Shown here: piece by piece, positions 4,056 through 19,547 of the stretch
How positions within the stretch are numbered: position 1 is the first letter of the stretch
How the letters are laid out: each line of letters starts with the position of its first letter
From: Methanobacteriota archaeon
Lineage (GTDB): Archaea; Halobacteriota; Methanosarcinia; Methanosarcinales; Methanosarcinaceae
Direction of reading: 5' to 3'
Length of the DNA: 44,681 nucleotides
Assembly: GCA_016841265.1 (NCBI GenBank)
Contig: JAENZL010000013.1
Location: 1 to 44,681, forward strand
Notes under the pieces: generated by a model
What the model was told of the DNA's origin: nothing
What the model saw: the letters and a program-made list of their open reading frames with translations, nothing else
The model's database searches: none
Made by a program: the position numbers and the translations under genes

Positions 4056-4780
4056 TCATTTACCAGCCACCAAACTCCTTGCAGTCTCCCTCACACTCCT
4101 CTCCGAACTATACTCCGGCTCCCATCCTATCCCCTTCAACTTCTCAATCCCAAGCCTCATCCTGGGCACGTCCCCTTTCCATCCCCTCGAACCACCCGTA
4201 TACGTAAACTCGACATCCGAAAGCCCCAGCTCCTCCACAACGATCTCCCCGATCCGGGTTGCGCTGATAGTGCCTTCCGAGCCGATATTGAAGATGTTGA
4301 CTTCTTATTTACTTTTTTCAATGATAAAAAGGATCGATTCCACGCATTCCGAAACGTGCAGATAGGATTTTTCCTGCTTTCCGTCGCCCAGGATTTCGAG
4401 CTTTCCGGGTTTTCCCGCAGTTTCCGGACGAAGTCCACGGTTATCCCGTGGGTGGAACGGGGGCCAACTATGTTTGCAAAGCGGAAGACCCAGGCCTGCA
4501 TGTCGAAGGTGTAGGTATATGAGGTTATCAGGGCTTCGCAGGCAAGTTTGGACGCCCCATAAAGGGATATTGGAATCAGCGGCCCGTAATCTTCGGGAGT
4601 GGGCATGACTTTTGCTTCCCCGTAGACGGTGGAAGTGGAGGTAAATGCAAGTTTTCCTGTCCCCTGCTTGCGCATGGCTTCCAGAAGATTATAGGTTGCC
4701 AAGATGTTCAGGTCGAAACGGACTTTTGTGGTTGAAACTCCCGGTTTTACGTCCAGGTTTGCAGCCGCGTAGAAATGCAC
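4056..4780 (-). pseudogene. NAD-dependent sugar-nucleotide epimerase remnant
   Basis: The first frame reads HFYAAANLDVKPGVSTTKVR, then TSTSTVYGEAKVMPTPEDYG and SLYGASKLACEAL. These are the Ser/Thr and Tyr-x-x-x-Lys catalytic regions of an extended short-chain dehydrogenase of the UDP-glucose 4-epimerase type. The N-terminal 60 or so residues with the glycine-rich NAD site are missing. Near 4401-4404 one base has been lost: the sequence passes from NPE into a frame reading KLEILGDGKQEKSYLHVSE. That frame meets an in-frame TAA in KSK-stop-EVNIFNIGSEG near 4303. The tail VEELGLSDVEFTYTGGSRGW to the end at 4056 is intact. Three independent lesions make this a pseudogene. The intact enzyme would have acted in surface sugar synthesis. 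Confidence 0.85.
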
Positions 4781-5069: not shown

Positions 5070-5984
5070 ATGGTAAAACCCGAGAAATTCATTCCAAAGG
5101 CAATTGATAGGATTAAAAACGAAATCGAGGGGAGGGCGATAATTGCCCTTTCTGGCGGCGTGGACAGTTCGGTCTGTGCGGAGCTTGCTTACAGGGCAAT
5201 CGGGGAGAAGCTGCACCCGATCTATATTGATACCGGGCTTATGAGGAAAGGGGAAACCGAAAGGATCGCCCACATCTTTTCCCACATGAACCTGCACATT
5301 GTGTTTGCGAAGGACAGGTTCCTGGGGGCTCTCAAGGGGATCACAGACCCCGAGGAGAAAAGAAAAGCAATCGGAGAGACCTTCATCCGGGTCTTCGAAG
5401 AGGAAGCAAAGGAGTTGCAGGCTGAGTACCTGATCCAGGGCACCATCTACCCGGACAGGATCGAGTCCGAGGGTGGGATCAAGTCCCACCATAACGTGGG
5501 TGGACTGCCTTCAGTAGTCGATTTCAAGAAGATCGTGGAGCCCATTGACGACCTTTACAAGGACGAGGTAAGGGAAGTTGCCTGGGCGCTTGAAATGCCG
5601 GAAGAGATCTGCGAGAGGATGCCTTTCCCGGGCCCCGGGCTGGCTGTGCGCGTGCTTGGAGAAGTTACCGAAGAAAAGGTAGAGGCAACCCGGGAGGCAA
5701 ATGCCATTGTCGAAGAAGAACTCCTGGACCGGTTCTGCCCCTGGCAGACCTATGCCGCATTGATCGGCAAAGGGACCGGGGTCAAGGGCGACATCCGGGC
5801 TTACGGCTGGATCATGGCAGTCAGGGCTGTCGGGTCCCGGGACGGGATGACCGCAGAAGCGCTGGAACTGCCCTGGGACGTCCTAAGGCACATCCAGTCC
5901 AGGATCACCTCCGAGATCCCGAGCGTGGTCAGGGTGGTCTACGACATCACGCCAAAACCGCCTGCAACCATTGAGTTCGAGTGA
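5070..5984 (+). CDS. guaAB: GMP synthase subunit B (ATP pyrophosphatase)
   Basis: This 304-residue protein is the synthetase half of archaeal GMP synthase. It adenylates XMP and lets ammonia from the separate glutaminase subunit convert it to GMP. SGGVDSS at residues 28-34 is the PP-loop that binds [17 protein letters not shown] and the C-terminal [17 protein letters not shown] are the dimerisation-domain signatures of the family. In archaea the glutaminase is often a separate gene, and no glutaminase domain is fused here. The start at 5070 is supported by AAAGGAG upstream. The gene is GC-rich and intact. Confidence 0.95.
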
Positions 5985-11194: not shown

Positions 11195-12628
11195 TTATTT
11201 ATTTTGCAATTTGACCCTCTGAGCAAGGATGCACTTTCCACCATGCCGGCCTCCAATGGGATACTGGGGTGTTCCAAGGGAGTTCATGCAGCGGGCCATG
11301 ACAGCCGCACCCCGAGCAAGCCCGTCGTCAACGAAAACCACGCGCTCATCGACTTTCGGAGCAATGCCCATTTCATCCAGGCATTTCAGGATCAGCTTTG
11401 GTTTGTTCCCGGTAATTCCGGCCCTGCCTGTGATCCCGATGGTGCTGTCCTCAAAGATCAGACCTTCATCTTTTGCAACTTTAACCAACCTGCAGGTAAC
11501 ATCCGCCATTACCTCGTCAATAACAGCCGAAATGACCTGTACCCCGTATTTTTTGCAAATTTCCATGCCGATTGCACTCAGTTTGCCCATATCGGACCCA
11601 TTTTCTCCAACATCACAACCGATGAGCATGACCCCCACTTCTTTAGCCCCTTCGGAACTCACGGGCACGCTCCCATACCTCGTCCTGTGTTCCGGGACTT
11701 TTTCTATAATGATAAGGTCGTTAATTCTCTTTGTGTATTCCTGGATTATCTTGGCCTTCAGCTTCAAAGTCAGGAAAGAGGTAGGCTTTTCGCCTTTCAG
11801 GACATCGAGCGCAGTTCCCAATTTAGCGTCCACGACCCTTGAACCCCGGATGATGGCATCGGGGATTGCACCCGCGTAGCCACAGAAGTTTCCGACGGTC
11901 TTTGCATAAGGCAGGTCGGGGCTTGTTATCCTTCCGTCCAGGGTGGTCCCAAAGTCAATAGAGATACAGGGATTCCTGAAATCCACGTCCGTCATTTTGG
12001 CTGCTTCCTTGATCCCTGCCGTTGCAAGTTCCCCTTCCATTTCATTCGCAACAATTTCAACTCCCGTGGAGCCTATTGGAGGCAGGACTCCTGCAACAGC
12101 CCCATCGAAAACCACCTTTTCCATCTTGCTGTATTTCTGGAACTTTTTTGGAATATTTGCGGTGGACATCGGAGGAGTCATATTTTTTGGCGGCACGCCG
12201 GCAAGAAGACAGCCCTCTGCAAGGGCTTTGACAAATTCCCCGACCTCATCCGGCGAGTCAAACCCTGCAACAACCCCTGTGGAACGGACAACAAAGTTAA
12301 GGTCGGTCTTAATATCCAGGTTGGCTTCATCCAGGGACTCAAGCAGGCTGTTGCGCACAAGCTCCGCAATGGACTGCCGGGTCAGTTCCACGCCCGTAAG
12401 CGTCCTGCCAAAAACCACTTCTCCGGGTTTCGGTCCCCGGACGTCCCTGGTCATCTTCACGACCTTGTTGATAATATGCGTCCTGCCTGTGTCCATATTG
12501 GTAGCGGTCAAGATACATTTCGTGGTGGTGTTTCCGACTTCCACGGAAGCCACGATGAAGAAAGGTTTTGACTTCAGGTCAAGTAAACGTACCTGGGGGG
12601 ATTCAGCAATTCTGGGTTTCAGAGCCAT
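11195..12628 (-). CDS. Methanogenesis marker protein 14
   Basis: This 477-residue protein matches methanogenesis marker 14, a family found in essentially all methanogens but of unproven function. It has an ASKHA (actin/Hsp70/sugar kinase) flavour: VASVEVGNTTTKCILTATNM near residue 30 resembles a phosphate-1 loop, and CISIDFGTTLDGRI near residue 224 a second one. The C-terminal GRAGITGNKPKLI and VFVDDGLARGAAVMARCMNS are further family blocks. Such folds often reactivate corrinoid or radical enzymes using ATP, but that role is only inferred here. No nearby partner on the same strand is visible. Confidence 0.8.
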   Translation of the reverse strand: MALKPRIAESPQVRLLDLKSKPFFIVASVEVGNTTTKCILTATNMDTGRTHIINKVVKMTRDVRGPKPGEVVFGRTLTGVELTRQSIAELVRNSLLESLDEANLDIKTDLNFVVRSTGVVAGFDSPDEVGEFVKALAEGCLLAGVPPKNMTPPMSTANIPKKFQKYSKMEKVVFDGAVAGVLPPIGSTGVEIVANEMEGELATAGIKEAAKMTDVDFRNPCISIDFGTTLDGRITSPDLPYAKTVGNFCGYAGAIPDAIIRGSRVVDAKLGTALDVLKGEKPTSFLTLKLKAKIIQEYTKRINDLIIIEKVPEHRTRYGSVPVSSEGAKEVGVMLIGCDVGENGSDMGKLSAIGMEICKKYGVQVISAVIDEVMADVTCRLVKVAKDEGLIFEDSTIGITGRAGITGNKPKLILKCLDEMGIAPKVDERVVFVDDGLARGAAVMARCMNSLGTPQYPIGGRHGGKCILAQRVKLQNK

Positions 12629-13327
12629 TTTTATTCCTTCTTAAAATCTGTAAATTTTATGAGTTGTATTTTATAAGACAAATTTATGAGTTGCAATTTT
12701 AAAAGATTCCTGTGAACAAAGGCTGTAAACAAAGGGATACTTCAGGATACCTGCAAAGGGTTCCGAGAGAGGAATTTAACAAGAACACAATTTATTTGAA
12801 GTATATATGAAGGTATCAACCAGAGCATATAATAATGTTTCCAAAAAGACCCCTGAGAGTCTACTGATCCGTATTTTACACAATCGAAGGGATAAATTAC
12901 CCCTGATTTTGGCCTGGAAAGGGAAAGAGATAGGGGTTTACGCCCCGACACACAATACTTTATTTCATTTATACTCTTTCAGTTTCACCTGTGTTTACAC
13001 CGTTAACGCTTTCACCTCACTTTTCGACCTTCAGACTCTGAGAAACTCAAAAGCCCGAACCGCCATTTTAATAAAGGAAGCTTACAGCGTATAAATATAA
13101 AGATTGTAAATATATAAATGTGGTGAAATTACAAATAAAACCATACAGACATCACAGACATCACAGACATCACAGACATCACAGACATCACAGGCATCAC
13201 AGACACAACACATTATAATTGACATACTAATTGACTAACCTTTCCGGATTGGCGCAAATCAATCACCTGGGACGGAGAGTCACATGCTACTTTAATTTTT
13301 CGTGTCAACCTTCATTGGAAGCTTTTA
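12629..13327. other. Long spacer with a 9-bp tandem repeat
   Basis: No convincing gene lies in this 700-base stretch; the 95-codon frame at 12807-13094 has no recognisable character. At 13149-13202 the unit ACATCACAG occurs six times with one substitution (GCATCACAG). The marker-14 promoter should lie at the left end and that of the broken FrhB-like gene at the right end. Confidence 0.5.
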
Positions 13328-14490
13328 ATGCCACTTGATCCTATCTGCAAGAGAATTGTGTCAGACAGTACTGAATACGTTTCGGACTACGGGGGGAAAC
13401 CTTACTATTTCTGCAGTCCCGAATGCAAACAAAAATTCGAGGTGCTGGAAAAGAGTGTTATCCGGCTCAAGCGAAACCTTAGCGACAAGGAAAAAATTTC
13501 CTTTGGAAAACTAAAGCGCGATATCATCAAACCGGGGATCTGCACCCTGTGCGGAGCCTGTGCCGCAAGCTGCGAGTGCATCATCATCGAAGATGGGAAA
13601 CCAAAACTTGTAGGCCCCTGCAAAGCCTGAGGTGTCTGTTACTACCAGTGCCCGCGGACCATCACCACGAAAGAGGGGCTTATCGGGAACATCCGCTATG
13701 CCTACGCCGCAAAATCTGCGATTCCCGAATTAAAGGGCCAGGACGGCGGGGTAGTGACCTCCCTCCTTCTTTACGCCCTCGATGAGGGCTCATTGACTGC
13801 GCTGTAGTCACCAGCCAGTCAAAGGAAGAACCCTGGAAACCCATGCCATTAGTTGCAAAAACCCGGGAAGAAATCCTGGAAAGTGGAGGCAGCATATACT
13901 CCCATTCCATGACCCTGGAAGCCCTCATGAGCGCCATAAAACAGGGAATGAACAGTATAGCTTTCGTGGGCACAAGCTGCAACATCGATGCCGTAACGAA
14001 GATGCAGAAAAGTTCCCACGGCTTACTGCACCTTTTCATGCGGGCAAAAATCCTTAAACCGGGCTTCTTTTGTATGGACACTTTCTCCTACGAAGGAATC
14101 AAAGCGGTGCTTGAGAGTTACGGGATCTTGCTCGAAGACGTCGACGCCATGAAAATCAGGAAAGGAAAGTTCGAAGTCGTCCTCAAAAATGGGGAAGACC
14201 GCACCTTCGAACTCAGCGAATTCGACGAATACCGGAGCTCCTCCTGCAAATTCTGCACGGACCTGACCGGAGAAAACTCGGACATCTCCTTTGGCGGCGT
14301 TGGAAGCCCCAAATGCTGGACCACAGTCCTCGCGAGATCAGCCATGGGCTACGAAATCTTCAAAGAAGCCGTTGATACCGGCTACATTGAAGCAAAGGAA
14401 CTGACCGACGACGAACTGGAAAAAGTCCTCAACCTCGCCAGGATGAAGAAGGTCCAGATGTACGCCCTGCACATGAGGGAAAAAGCGTGA
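13328..14490 (+). pseudogene. YHS/ferredoxin/FrhB-like protein, interrupted
   Basis: The frame starts MPLDPICKRIVSDSTEYVSD, a YHS/TRASH metal-binding domain, with FCSPECKQKFE completing it. A ferredoxin-like CTLCGACAASCEC follows. At 13628-13630 TGA interrupts GPCKA-stop-GVCYYQCPRT, where relatives would have Cys, completing CxxC. The same frame continues through GLIGNIRYAYAA to about 13790, where one missing base shifts the frame. From 13801 the frame reads VVTSQSKEEPWKP and runs to 14490 as a coenzyme F420 hydrogenase/dehydrogenase beta-subunit domain (FVGTSCNIDAVTKMQ, SSCKFCTDLTGENSDISFGG). The intact protein would be a flavin and Fe-S oxidoreductase using F420. The two lesions, or two sequencing errors, break it into three frames. 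Confidence 0.85.
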
Positions 14491-14919
14491 AACTTGCAAA
14501 AGAAAGTATGAGTGAGACTTGCCAAATAAAGTATGAGTGAGACTCCAGATGAAAATATAAGTGAGACTCCAGATGAAAATATAAGTGAGACTCCAGATGA
14601 AAATATAAGTGAGACCCCAGGTGAAATTCTAAATTAAATCCTGAGTGAAAAATCAGTCCGTTTGACCGAAAGAAAAAAAAGCGAATTGCGGCGGTTGAAG
14701 CGGACAGAATATTATGTATACAGTTCTCTTGAGCGAGCGAAAAGAATCGCAACTTACTGACTGCCCACTGACTGCTAGCCGGCTTCTTGTCGGCTATCTA
14801 TCAGCTGCCCGCCGGCAACAGATTGGGGAGGTAGAGAATATATATTTATTTCATGACTTGTTTTTAGTATGCAGAGTCAATATCCTTTTATTCAGATCAT
14901 TCTTTTTTGAGGAAATTTC
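14491..14919. repeat. 24-bp tandem repeat and inverted-repeat element
   Basis: From about 14536 to 14628 a 24-base unit, AGTGAGACTCCAGATGAAAA plus TATA, is repeated nearly four times. At 14656-14705 arms GTCCG and CGGAC enclose an A-rich stretch, and TAGCCG/CGGCTA at 14776-14796 forms a hairpin. This layout resembles that at 7108-7283. A TATA-like run at 14838-14848 and GAGGAAAT before 14920 serve the gatCAB genes. Confidence 0.55.
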
Positions 14920-15201
14920 ATGATCACAAAAGAAGATGTAGAACACATCGGCTGGCTTGCCAGGATTGAGATTAGCGAGCAGGAAAAGGCCGAATATATG
15001 GAAAAACTTAACTCAGTACTGGACTATTTCGGGCAGCTCGACGAAGTGGCAACGGAAGACGTATCTCCCACCTATCATGTGATTGACCTCCACAATGTAT
15101 TTAGAGAGGACGTGGCAGCAGAGTCCCTCCCGCAGGAGAAGGTACTCGCAAACACCGAAAACAAACAGGAAGGGGCCTTCAAAGTCCCGAGAATCGGGTG
15201 A
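14920..15201 (+). CDS. gatC: Asp-tRNA(Asn)/Glu-tRNA(Gln) amidotransferase subunit C
   Basis: GatC is the 93-residue stabilising subunit of the GatCAB amidotransferase. [20 protein letters not shown] at the start, the central [20 protein letters not shown] and DVSPTYHV are its usual blocks, and it ends in [11 protein letters not shown] like most GatC proteins. GAGGAAAT lies before the ATG. It is the first gene of the gatCAB operon, with gatA starting 16 bases after its stop. In archaea GatCAB generally makes Asn-tRNA(Asn), while GatDE makes Gln-tRNA(Gln). Confidence 0.95.
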
Positions 15202-15217
15202 GGAGGTATCGGATTAC

Positions 15218-16651
15218 ATGACAGCAAAATGGATGAGCGTTGCGGAAATAAAGCAGAAAATCGGGGAAAGTTCGGCCGAAGAGGTCACAGCCGACTATCT
15301 TGAAGCAATCAAGAAGAGCAAGATCAACGGCTATGTTACGGTTTCGGACAGAGCCCTTGAAAAGTCAAAGGAGATCGATTCCGAGGGGCACAAAGGCCCG
15401 CTTGCGGGAGTCCCTATCGCAATCAAGGACAACATCTCCGTTCAGGGCCTGCCTAACAGTTGCGGCTCAAGGATGCTTGAAAACTATGTCCCGCCCTTCA
15501 ACGCCCACGTTATTGAAAAACTAATCGAGGCCGGAGCCGTAATCCTCGGAAAAACCAACATGGACGAGTTCGCCATGGGATCCTCGACCGAGAGCAGCTA
15601 CTTCGGACCCGTCTTAAACCCCTGGGACCTCGAAAGGGTGCCCGGAGGATCTTCGGGAGGTAGTGCCGCAGTCGTTGCCGCAGGAGAAGCTCCTTTTGCC
15701 CTCGGCTCGGACACGGGCGGCTCAATCCGCTGTCCGGCCTCTTTCTGCGGAGTGGTGGGGCTCAAACCCACCTACGGGGCGGTTTCAAGATACGGAGCCG
15801 TGGCTTATGCAAACTCCCTGGAACAGATAGGCCCCCTCGCAAACAACGTGGAAGATATCGCGGTCCTGATGGACGTGATCGCGGGCCACGATGCCAGGGA
15901 CTCGACCTCGGTTCCGGAAGAAAAAACCGATTACCAGGCAGCCCTTAAGGACGATATCAAAGGCCTGAAAATCGGGGTTCCGAAAGAATACTTCGGAGAA
16001 GGGATAAGCCCGGGCGTTGAAAAAGCGGTCTGGGATGCAATCCACCACTGTGAGGCCCTCGGAGCTTCCTGGGAAGAAGTCTCAATGCCCCACACGAAGT
16101 ACGCCCTTGCTTCCTACTACATCATCGCCATGAGTGAGGCCTCCTCAAACCTCGCCCGCTTTGACGGGACAAGGTACGGTTTCAGGGAAGCCGGCGAGAC
16201 CTGGCACTCCCTTATCTCAAAGACCAGGGCGGAAGGCTTCGGGGACGAGGTTAAGCGAAGAATCCTTATCGGGACCTATGCGCTTTCCGCGGGTTATCAT
16301 GACAAATACTACCTCAAGGCCCTGAAGGTCAGGACCCTTGTAAAGCAGGACTTTGAGAAGGCCCTTTCAAAGGTGGACGTGCTCATGGCCCCGACGATGC
16401 CAAATCCGGCTTTCAAGGTTGGGGAAAAGATCGAGGACCCGCTTGCTCTCTACCTCTCGGACGTAAACACGGTGCCCATCAACCTGGCAGGCGTGCCTTC
16501 CATGTCCGTCCCCTGCGGCTTTACAGACGGGCTTCCGGTCGGGCTCCAGATCATAGGCAAACCCTTTGACGAGCCAACCCTGCTCAGGACAGCTTATACA
16601 TTCGAGCAAAATACGGATTATCACAGCAGAAGACCTCCGGAGGTGGCTTAA
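15218..16651 (+). CDS. gatA: Asp-tRNA(Asn)/Glu-tRNA(Gln) amidotransferase subunit A
   Basis: GatA is the glutaminase subunit that releases ammonia for tRNA-bound Asp or Glu. I chose the ATG at 15218, which gives 477 residues: GGAGGTAT lies just before it, and the longer frame from 15083 would overlap gatC with non-homologous sequence. The amidase signature is clear: IAIKDNI holds the catalytic Lys, then [19 protein letters not shown] and [16 protein letters not shown] supply the two serines of the Ser-cisSer-Lys triad. The C-terminal [14 protein letters not shown] is standard. It is immediately followed by gatB with no spacer. Confidence 0.95.
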
Positions 16652-18139
16652 ATGGTGTACGAAAACCCTGATGGCGTGATGATAGGGCTTGAGATCCACG
16701 TCCAGCTCAACAAGCTCAAAAGCAAGATGTTCTGCGGCTGTTCGACCGACTACCACGATGCGGAACCCAACACCCACACCTGTCCGGTCTGCCTGGGCTT
16801 GCCCGGGGCCTTGCCGGTCCTGAACAGGGAAGTTGTGAAGGCCGCAATCAAGGTAGGCCTTGCCCTTGAAGGGGAAATTGCGGAAGAAACGCAGTTTCAC
16901 AGGAAGAACTATTTCTATCCTGACCTGCCCAGAGGCTTCCAGACGACCCAGTACGACTACCCGATCGTGAGCAAAGGGAAGGTAGTGATCGAGGGCGAAG
17001 ATGGAGAACATGAGGTAGGAATCTGGAGAGCCCATATGGAAGACGACCCGGGGAAGCTGGTCCATATAGGGAGCATCGAAAAGTCCAAAGGGGTACTGAT
17101 CGACTACAACCGGTCTGGGATGCCCCTGATCGAGACCGTTACAGCCCCGGACATGAGAAGCCCCAAGGAAGCCCGGAGGTTCCTTGACAAGTTCCGAAAC
17201 ATCCTCGAGTACCTGGACGTCTTCGACGGCAACCTGGAAGGAGCCATGAGGATGGACGCAAACGTCTCGGTCTACGGCGGCACCCGTGTTGAGGTCAAGA
17301 ACATCTCCTCCCACAAAGGCGTGGAAAAGGCCCTTCTCTACGAGATCATGCGCCAGAAAAACGTGATCCGCCGCGGAGGTGAAATCACACAGGAGACCCG
17401 CCACTTCGACGAAGCCCGGGGTGTGACCATAGGAATGAGGACAAAAGAAGAAGCAGAAGACTACCGCTACTTCAGGGAACCTGACCTCATGCCGATGAAA
17501 GTATCCGACTGGACCCCGAAGATCAAAGAGACCCTTCCGGAACTTCCCGACGCCAAACGCGCCCGCTTCATTGAGCAGTACGGCATAGCGGACATGCATG
17601 CAAAAGCCCTGACCTCCAAGATCATGCTCGCCGACTTCTACGAAGGCGTCTGCAAAAAAGGCACAGACCCAAAACAGGCAGCCACCTGGATCGCCGACGT
17701 GCTCCTGGGCGAATTAAACTACCGCGACCTTGTTATCTCCTCGTATGACGGCAGCACCATCGGTTGCATCAACGACAAGGACCACAGCATTGCAAACTCC
17801 ACAAGGGTCGCCGATATGGTCGATCTGGTAGCCCTCTTCACTGACGGCAAGATCAGCGACAGGGCTGCAGTGGAAGTCATCCGGACAATTCTGGACGGCG
17901 AGGAAGAAAAGACCCCTCTACAGGTCATAGAGGAAAAAGGCCTCTTCAAAGCCGAAGACGACCTGGTCACAAAAGCCGTCGCTGAAGCCATCACCGAAAA
18001 CGAAGCCGCAGTCCAGGACTACCTGGGAGGCGCTGAAAAGTCCCTGAACTTCCTGGTAGGACAGGTTATGAAAAAGACCAAGGGCACCGCCGACGCAAAG
18101 ACCGCCCGCGAGATGCTCGTCAAGGAACTGAAAGGATGA
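16652..18139 (+). CDS. gatB: Asp-tRNA(Asn)/Glu-tRNA(Gln) amidotransferase subunit B
   Basis: GatB is the kinase/transamidase subunit that activates the tRNA-bound acid. The 495 residues begin with MIGLEIHVQLNKLKSKMFCG and include CPVCLGLPGALPVLN, HRKNYFYPDLPRGFQTTQYD and the metal-binding HMEDDPGKL. The C-terminal helical YqeY-like domain runs to VGQVMKKTKGTADAKTAREM. GGAGGTGG inside the end of gatA serves as the ribosome site, and the gatA stop abuts the gatB ATG, so the two are translationally coupled. A hairpin terminator follows about 60 bases after the stop. Confidence 0.96.
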   Translation: MVYENPDGVMIGLEIHVQLNKLKSKMFCGCSTDYHDAEPNTHTCPVCLGLPGALPVLNREVVKAAIKVGLALEGEIAEETQFHRKNYFYPDLPRGFQTTQYDYPIVSKGKVVIEGEDGEHEVGIWRAHMEDDPGKLVHIGSIEKSKGVLIDYNRSGMPLIETVTAPDMRSPKEARRFLDKFRNILEYLDVFDGNLEGAMRMDANVSVYGGTRVEVKNISSHKGVEKALLYEIMRQKNVIRRGGEITQETRHFDEARGVTIGMRTKEEAEDYRYFREPDLMPMKVSDWTPKIKETLPELPDAKRARFIEQYGIADMHAKALTSKIMLADFYEGVCKKGTDPKQAATWIADVLLGELNYRDLVISSYDGSTIGCINDKDHSIANSTRVADMVDLVALFTDGKISDRAAVEVIRTILDGEEEKTPLQVIEEKGLFKAEDDLVTKAVAEAITENEAAVQDYLGGAEKSLNFLVGQVMKKTKGTADAKTAREMLVKELKG

Positions 18140-18701: not shown

Positions 18702-19547
18702 TCAGTACAATTCCGGCCTCCGGTCTCCGAAAATGGAAGTAGTTCCCCTGGTTTCTTTTGCCTTTTCCAGATCGACCTCCCCTACCAGAACACACTCCTC
18801 TTTTCCGGCTTCTGCCAGCACGCTCCCCCAGGCATCCGCGATAAAAGAGCCTCCGAGGTAAGTCGAATACCTGTCTTTTCCTACCCGGTTGCAGGCGACG
18901 TGCGGGAGCTGGTTTTCCAGCGCCCTGGCAAGGGAGATTATCCGCCAGGGGTATCCGAAAAAGTCCGGGATTTCAGCAGCCGAGACCAGGATGTCCGCCC
19001 CCTCAAGGGCAAGTTTCCGGGCAACTTCCGGGTAGCGGAGTTCATTACAGACAATGAGCCCGATAGTAAGTCCGTGTTTTTCCAGCCGGATAGGAGCAAT
19101 CCGGTCTCCGGGTACAAAATGCTCTTTTTCAGGGCCGTAGAGGTGAGTTTTCCGGTGGGTGCCGGCAAGTTTTCCTGATTCGATACAGAAACCGAGGTTG
19201 TACTGGGAAGGACTCTGCTTTTTTTCAGTGAATCCGGTTTTTTTCGTCAGCACCTTCTCTATAACTGGGTCTGTCAGATCCTTCCTTTCCATCCCCTCTA
19301 TGATTGATCCCGCAATAATGCAGTCATGTTCTTTCGAAAAAGTACGGAGAGCTTCGAGGGTGGGTCCTGAAAGAGGTTCTGCAACGTCCTCAATTCGGCT
19401 GTAGCAAAAGCCTGTTGAGAAGACTTCAGGAAAGACTATCATTTCAGCTTCCCTGGAAACGGCATCCTCTGCCAGGGAGAGGGCACGCTCAAGGTTTTCC
19501 TGTATTGAGCAGAGGGAGATGTTCATCTGGATGCAGGCAATTTTCAT
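18702..19547 (-). CDS. Carbon-nitrogen hydrolase (nitrilase superfamily)
   Basis: This 281-residue enzyme belongs to the nitrilase superfamily, which hydrolyses non-peptide C-N bonds through a Glu-Lys-Cys triad. The three are visible: Glu in IVFPEVFSTGF near residue 40, Lys in HRKTHLYGPEKE near 134, and Cys in GLIVCNELRYPEVARKL near 168. The ending GEVDLEKAKETRG is typical. The closest relatives by motif are omega-amidase or amidohydrolase-like members, but the substrate cannot be told from sequence. It is a cytoplasmic, monocistronic gene; its promoter region holds a 23-base direct repeat. Confidence 0.88.
   Translation of the reverse strand: MKIACIQMNISLCSIQENLERALSLAEDAVSREAEMIVFPEVFSTGFCYSRIEDVAEPLSGPTLEALRTFSKEHDCIIAGSIIEGMERKDLTDPVIEKVLTKKTGFTEKKQSPSQYNLGFCIESGKLAGTHRKTHLYGPEKEHFVPGDRIAPIRLEKHGLTIGLIVCNELRYPEVARKLALEGADILVSAAEIPDFFGYPWRIISLARALENQLPHVACNRVGKDRYSTYLGGSFIADAWGSVLAEAGKEECVLVGEVDLEKAKETRGTTSIFGDRRPELY

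Follow-up and report, generated by a model that had tools for sequence, protein, structure and literature searches.

The gene at positions 13328-14490 of the analyzed window, the whole stretch of 44,681 nucleotides from a Methanosarcinaceae archaeon, is very probably a young unitary pseudogene, as judged by comparison with its orthologues. In the ancestral state it would have encoded a protein of about 388 amino acids with a YHS domain, two [4Fe-4S] clusters and an FrhB-type region. A young pseudogene is favored because the gene is open in relatives, searches for tRNA-Sec, SepSecS and PSTK found no selenocysteine machinery in the genome, the gene was lost in a congener, and interrupted copies were found elsewhere. 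The preliminary description had left the choice between a very young pseudogene and two sequencing errors; the analysis supports this pair of readings, with the pseudogene favored and sequencing error kept as a minority rival.

Structure of the interrupted gene

The frame begins at 13328 and reads MPLDPICK...GPCKA-stop-GVCYYQCP. Its codon 101, where the second ferredoxin motif has its second cysteine, is TGA (Table 1). The replacement of a cluster cysteine by TGA, as claimed in the preliminary description, was therefore borne out, and so was a second defect of one missing base, which had been located near 13790 and was placed a few bases away by DNA alignment with four related genomes (G002, G003, G004, and G023). 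The resulting frameshift lies 154 bases past the TGA codon. Downstream of the deficit, the frame remains open up to the stop ending at 14490, and the first ATG of this 3' piece (13843) falls within the FrhB_FdhB_N domain and leaves 215 codons.

Table 1. Features of the interrupted gene and its neighbors in the window.
Feature	Position	Strand	Description
DUF2114 (PF09887)	11195..12628	-	divergent upstream neighbor
5' piece	13328..13630	+	ends at TGA codon 101; YHS, first ferredoxin motif (CTLCGACAASC), first Cys of second motif
TGA at Cys position	13628..13630	+	Cys in 27/27 other orthologues counted
One-base deficit, codon 153	13784..13785	+	from comparison with relatives
3' piece	13786..14490	+	remainder of FrhB_FdhB_N and FrhB_FdhB_C; 234-codon open frame
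gatC-gatA-gatB	14920..18139	+	downstream

A Pfam scan of two open orthologues gave the domain order YHS, ferredoxin, FrhB_N, and FrhB_C. The YHS, FrhB_FdhB_N, and FrhB_FdhB_C matches exceeded the curated cut-offs in both, while the dicluster ferredoxin matches were below the Pfam cut-offs. The eight cysteines of the two ferredoxin motifs (72, 75, 78, 82, 98, 101, 104, and 108) were nonetheless invariant in all 27 orthologues counted. Both FrhB/FdhB family domains are present in the window gene, divided between its 5' and 3' pieces. The same domain order had been described as rare; this was not borne out, since in 29 of the 32 named loci the match begins at residue 1. Among solved chains, the open orthologue of G002 matched 8riu_B (3e-55), the F420-dependent sulfite reductase 7np8_A (4.5e-50), and FrhB 3zfs_C (7.1e-45). 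We infer from homology that the ancestral protein would have oxidized or reduced F420 at FAD, with electrons passing through two [4Fe-4S] clusters to a partner. No paper linking the YHS domain, F420, and Methanosarcina was found, and the term "YHS" does not occur in the main text of PMC9012536.

Two arrays of tandem repeats flank the gene, one upstream (13145-13205, a 9-base unit in 6.8 copies) and one downstream (14487-14651, a 24-base unit in about five copies). No Rfam family matched the window at gathering thresholds.

Synteny and related genes

The locus is syntenic with those of G002 and G003, and the window gene is thus their orthologue. Among the 15 named loci with at least 79% identity (L027-L041), all titled Methanosarcina or Methanosarcinaceae in agreement with the genus named in the preliminary description, gatC was found downstream of the orthologue in every one except L040. 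DUF2114 was found in 11 of them; L033 and L034 are short pieces, and L036 and L039 showed none. Two neighboring genes had unusual substitution counts. The gatA of G003, counterpart of window 15083-16651, is strongly diverged compared with most neighbors (107:177 changes on the G003 branch; 82% protein identity), which suggests a recombination in G003. Similarly, the ORF at 18702-19547 carried 55:64 changes on the window branch, against 8:15 for G003 and 10:14 for G002, a pattern suggesting that the window's genome carries a replaced copy.

A DNA search of the window's genome identified no second copy of the broken gene. The FrhB_FdhB_C domain had five matches in this genome: the broken gene itself, three open paralogues, and one short fragment with an in-frame TAG (L072 1501-1638; G000:C11:2403-2540, minus strand), which is likely a remnant of another FrhB paralogue. 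Comparable fragments were observed in the relatives. In G003, four FrhB_FdhB_C fragments lie at G003:C1:461371-469697, near an open FrhB-type frame of 374 codons at 472704 on the same strand; an in-frame TGA occurs in one of the four. G002 has one similar fragment about 3 kb from the counterpart of that open frame.

Distribution and state of the orthologues

The comparison with orthologues, which the preliminary description had proposed for sister strains and which was made here with relatives, found open frames with neither lesion in G002, G003, G004, and G023, two of the four at 94% DNA identity. The two same-genus frames are listed at 388 (G002) and 395 (G003) amino acids, the latter counted from an upstream GTG. 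Three of the four genomes of the genus, including that of the window, hold the gene sequence. In the fourth (G001, listed as 99% complete), DUF2114 and gatC are in place and the gene is absent between them: the G001 DNA had no match to the window between 13081 and 14830, and a protein search of the DUF2114-gatC stretch returned nothing better than E = 1.8. G001 does encode three open FrhB paralogues. More broadly, DNA matches were found in 25 of the 40 genomes compared, the window's own included, where a miss may reflect divergence and not loss.

Conservation was counted over 27 open orthologues, drawn from 32 named loci (L027-L058) of a total of 36, with L059-L062 unused. The loci left out were L027, which is likely identical to G002 (100% protein identity), and the interrupted or partial L039, L041, L055, and L057, the last a partial sequence with one ambiguous residue. 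A cysteine at position 101 was present in all 27, as well as in G003 and G002.

Interrupted copies occurred in three of the 32 named loci. In Methanosarcina spelaei (L039), the frame changes near residue 96; in Methanosarcina sp. Ant1 (L041), both frameshifts and stops were present; and in Methanococcoides vulcani (L055), an in-frame TAG (5502-5504) replaces the codon of a tyrosine conserved in relatives. In Methanococcoides, a TAG might presumably be decoded as pyrrolysine, and at L055 this would look the same as breakage. The interruptions in these three records may also be draft errors. Because the gene is absent at the same locus in G001 and interrupted in three of the 32 named loci, it seems to be dispensable, and its loss seems to be tolerated in the genus.

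Substitutions on the window branch and lesions on the contig

The N:S counts of the gene were 10:22 plus the stop on the window branch, 7:24 on the G002 branch, and 6:20 on the G003 branch. The difference between the window and the other two together (13:44) was not significant, with the stop counted (Fisher P = 0.33). Over 22 ORFs of the contig, the window branch summed to 218:447 with the two pieces of the broken gene and to 209:429 without them; 22 of 23 ORF rows were used in this sum, the omitted row being one where N was not below S. As the ratio of the gene is not significantly above that of G002 and G003 together and resembles that of the contig ORFs, these counts gave no signal of relaxed selection on the window branch. 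Coding changes at sites invariant in the 27 orthologues were three of 11 on the window branch (codons 101, 115, and 247), one of seven in G002 (codon 275), and none of six in G003, while derived states unseen in the 27 orthologues were seven of 11, three of seven (one of them at a column that the others lack), and one of six, respectively; the numbers in both comparisons are small.

Across the window's contig, seven of 55 conserved ORFs of G003 and four of 28 of G002 were flagged, the broken gene being one in each list; in the reverse comparison, five of 53 contig ORFs were flagged against G003 and three of 27 against G002. One flagged G003 ORF (108117, an open epimerase of 322 amino acids) is accounted for by an old remnant, since window 4059-4780 contains a truncated and frame-shifted copy of this NAD-dependent epimerase gene. 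The others from G003 were two (29556 and 40309) that lie antisense to conserved ORFs with open frames in the contig, two with open counterparts of different ends (23045 and 58680; 301 and 428 amino acids), and ORF 100005, of which 143 of 175 residues match an open ORF of 144 amino acids and which also overlaps further conserved ORFs. Two of the G002 ORFs, 37438 and 38867, run antisense to open ORFs with lengths of 366 and 428 amino acids, and in the 103-residue ORF 36837 the match covers only residues 1-62. Viewed in this way, fresh lesions look rare on the contig.

Favored and alternative explanations

As a pseudogene, the gene would be very young. The stop within the second cluster motif would have arisen by a single-base substitution, and the frame beyond it would have been shifted by the loss of a single base. 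Ordinary decoding would then yield a fragment of 100 amino acids with the YHS domain and half of the ferredoxin, and the full-length protein would not be made. Both lesions would be explained at once if, after the first of them, the gene was free to decay.

It is unlikely that the gene is intact and that both lesions are errors of sequencing or assembly, although two observations fit such errors: the genome is a draft of 67 contigs, and apart from the lesions, the substitution ratios of the gene on the window branch are ordinary. Such errors would have to be two independent events within 160 bases, and it is improbable that a single gene received two by chance, because most of the other flagged ORFs are antisense or end-point cases, with the epimerase remnant and ORF 36837 as exceptions. 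The deficit also lies outside any long homopolymer, and the gene contains no Ns, the sole N run in the 84,681 contig bases examined being 10 Ns just past the window end.

Recoding of the UGA, either as selenocysteine or as cysteine through the SelB-like factor of Methanosarcina, is highly improbable. The TGA does sit exactly on a conserved cysteine codon, and the M. mazei SelB-like protein has been reported to bind Cys-tRNA(Cys) (PMC4329189). However, recoding would not carry translation across the frameshift, and in the parts of PMC3037878 consulted, SelB-like proteins are judged unlikely to respond to SECIS, and Methanosarcina is tabulated with a SelB-like protein but with no aSelB or SelD. 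The preliminary remark that no use of selenocysteine is known from Methanosarcina found support in the genome itself, whose assembly is listed as 97.29% complete. None of five tRNA-Sec model hits exceeded the cut-off, and ARAGORN assigned them to four tRNA-Ser and one tRNA-Leu; the same search matched in all 14 control genomes and was over the cut-off in five. SepSecS had no match, and among the 14 controls only M. jannaschii had one, M. acetivorans having none. PSTK gave a single match of 20 bits, which spans 35 positions and compares with a cut-off of 290.5, while its control search matched in nine of the 14 genomes, over the cut-off in one. With no hit over the cut-off for any of the three models, the selenocysteine reading was rejected. 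That a putative SelB-like factor with Cys-tRNA(Cys) reads the UGA as cysteine and a programmed frameshift then restores the full-length protein is barely conceivable.

It is also highly doubtful that the gene now functions as two separately translated pieces. The 3' piece is a long open frame of 234 codons, yet the 5' piece stops inside the second cluster motif, and no clear ribosome-binding site was seen by eye for the ATG at 13843, which would start translation inside a domain. Even taken jointly, recoding and split function are very unlikely.

Comparison with known systems

The finding is ordinary in kind and of modest interest as the repeated loss of one F420-type oxidoreductase. It is a well-placed case of recent gene loss: close relatives keep the gene open, one congener lacks it, and other methanogens carry interrupted copies, so that parts of the family seem able to dispense with an F420-type oxidoreductase that has a YHS domain. 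A further lesson is that such a TGA should not be taken for a recoded cysteine; it looks like ordinary gene loss, with no hidden amino-acid code.

The broken gene shares its two family domains (PF04422 and PF04432) with the F420-dependent flavoproteins FrhB, FdhB, and FpoF, from which the window copy differs in being broken. The nearest of the 17 PDB matches of the G002 orthologue are FrhB-type F420 proteins, including Frh beta subunits. The N-terminal YHS domain sets the ancestral gene apart from all 17, whose best-matching stretches begin at query residue 55 at least. Unitary pseudogenes are recognized by disabling lesions set against open syntenic orthologues, and both were found here. In common with unitary pseudogenes formed by a stop and a frameshift, the gene is present as one syntenic copy with two disabling lesions, and its counterparts in close relatives are open. 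Compared with unitary pseudogenes in general, the window case, if real, would be so recent that the substitution ratios show no relaxed selection.
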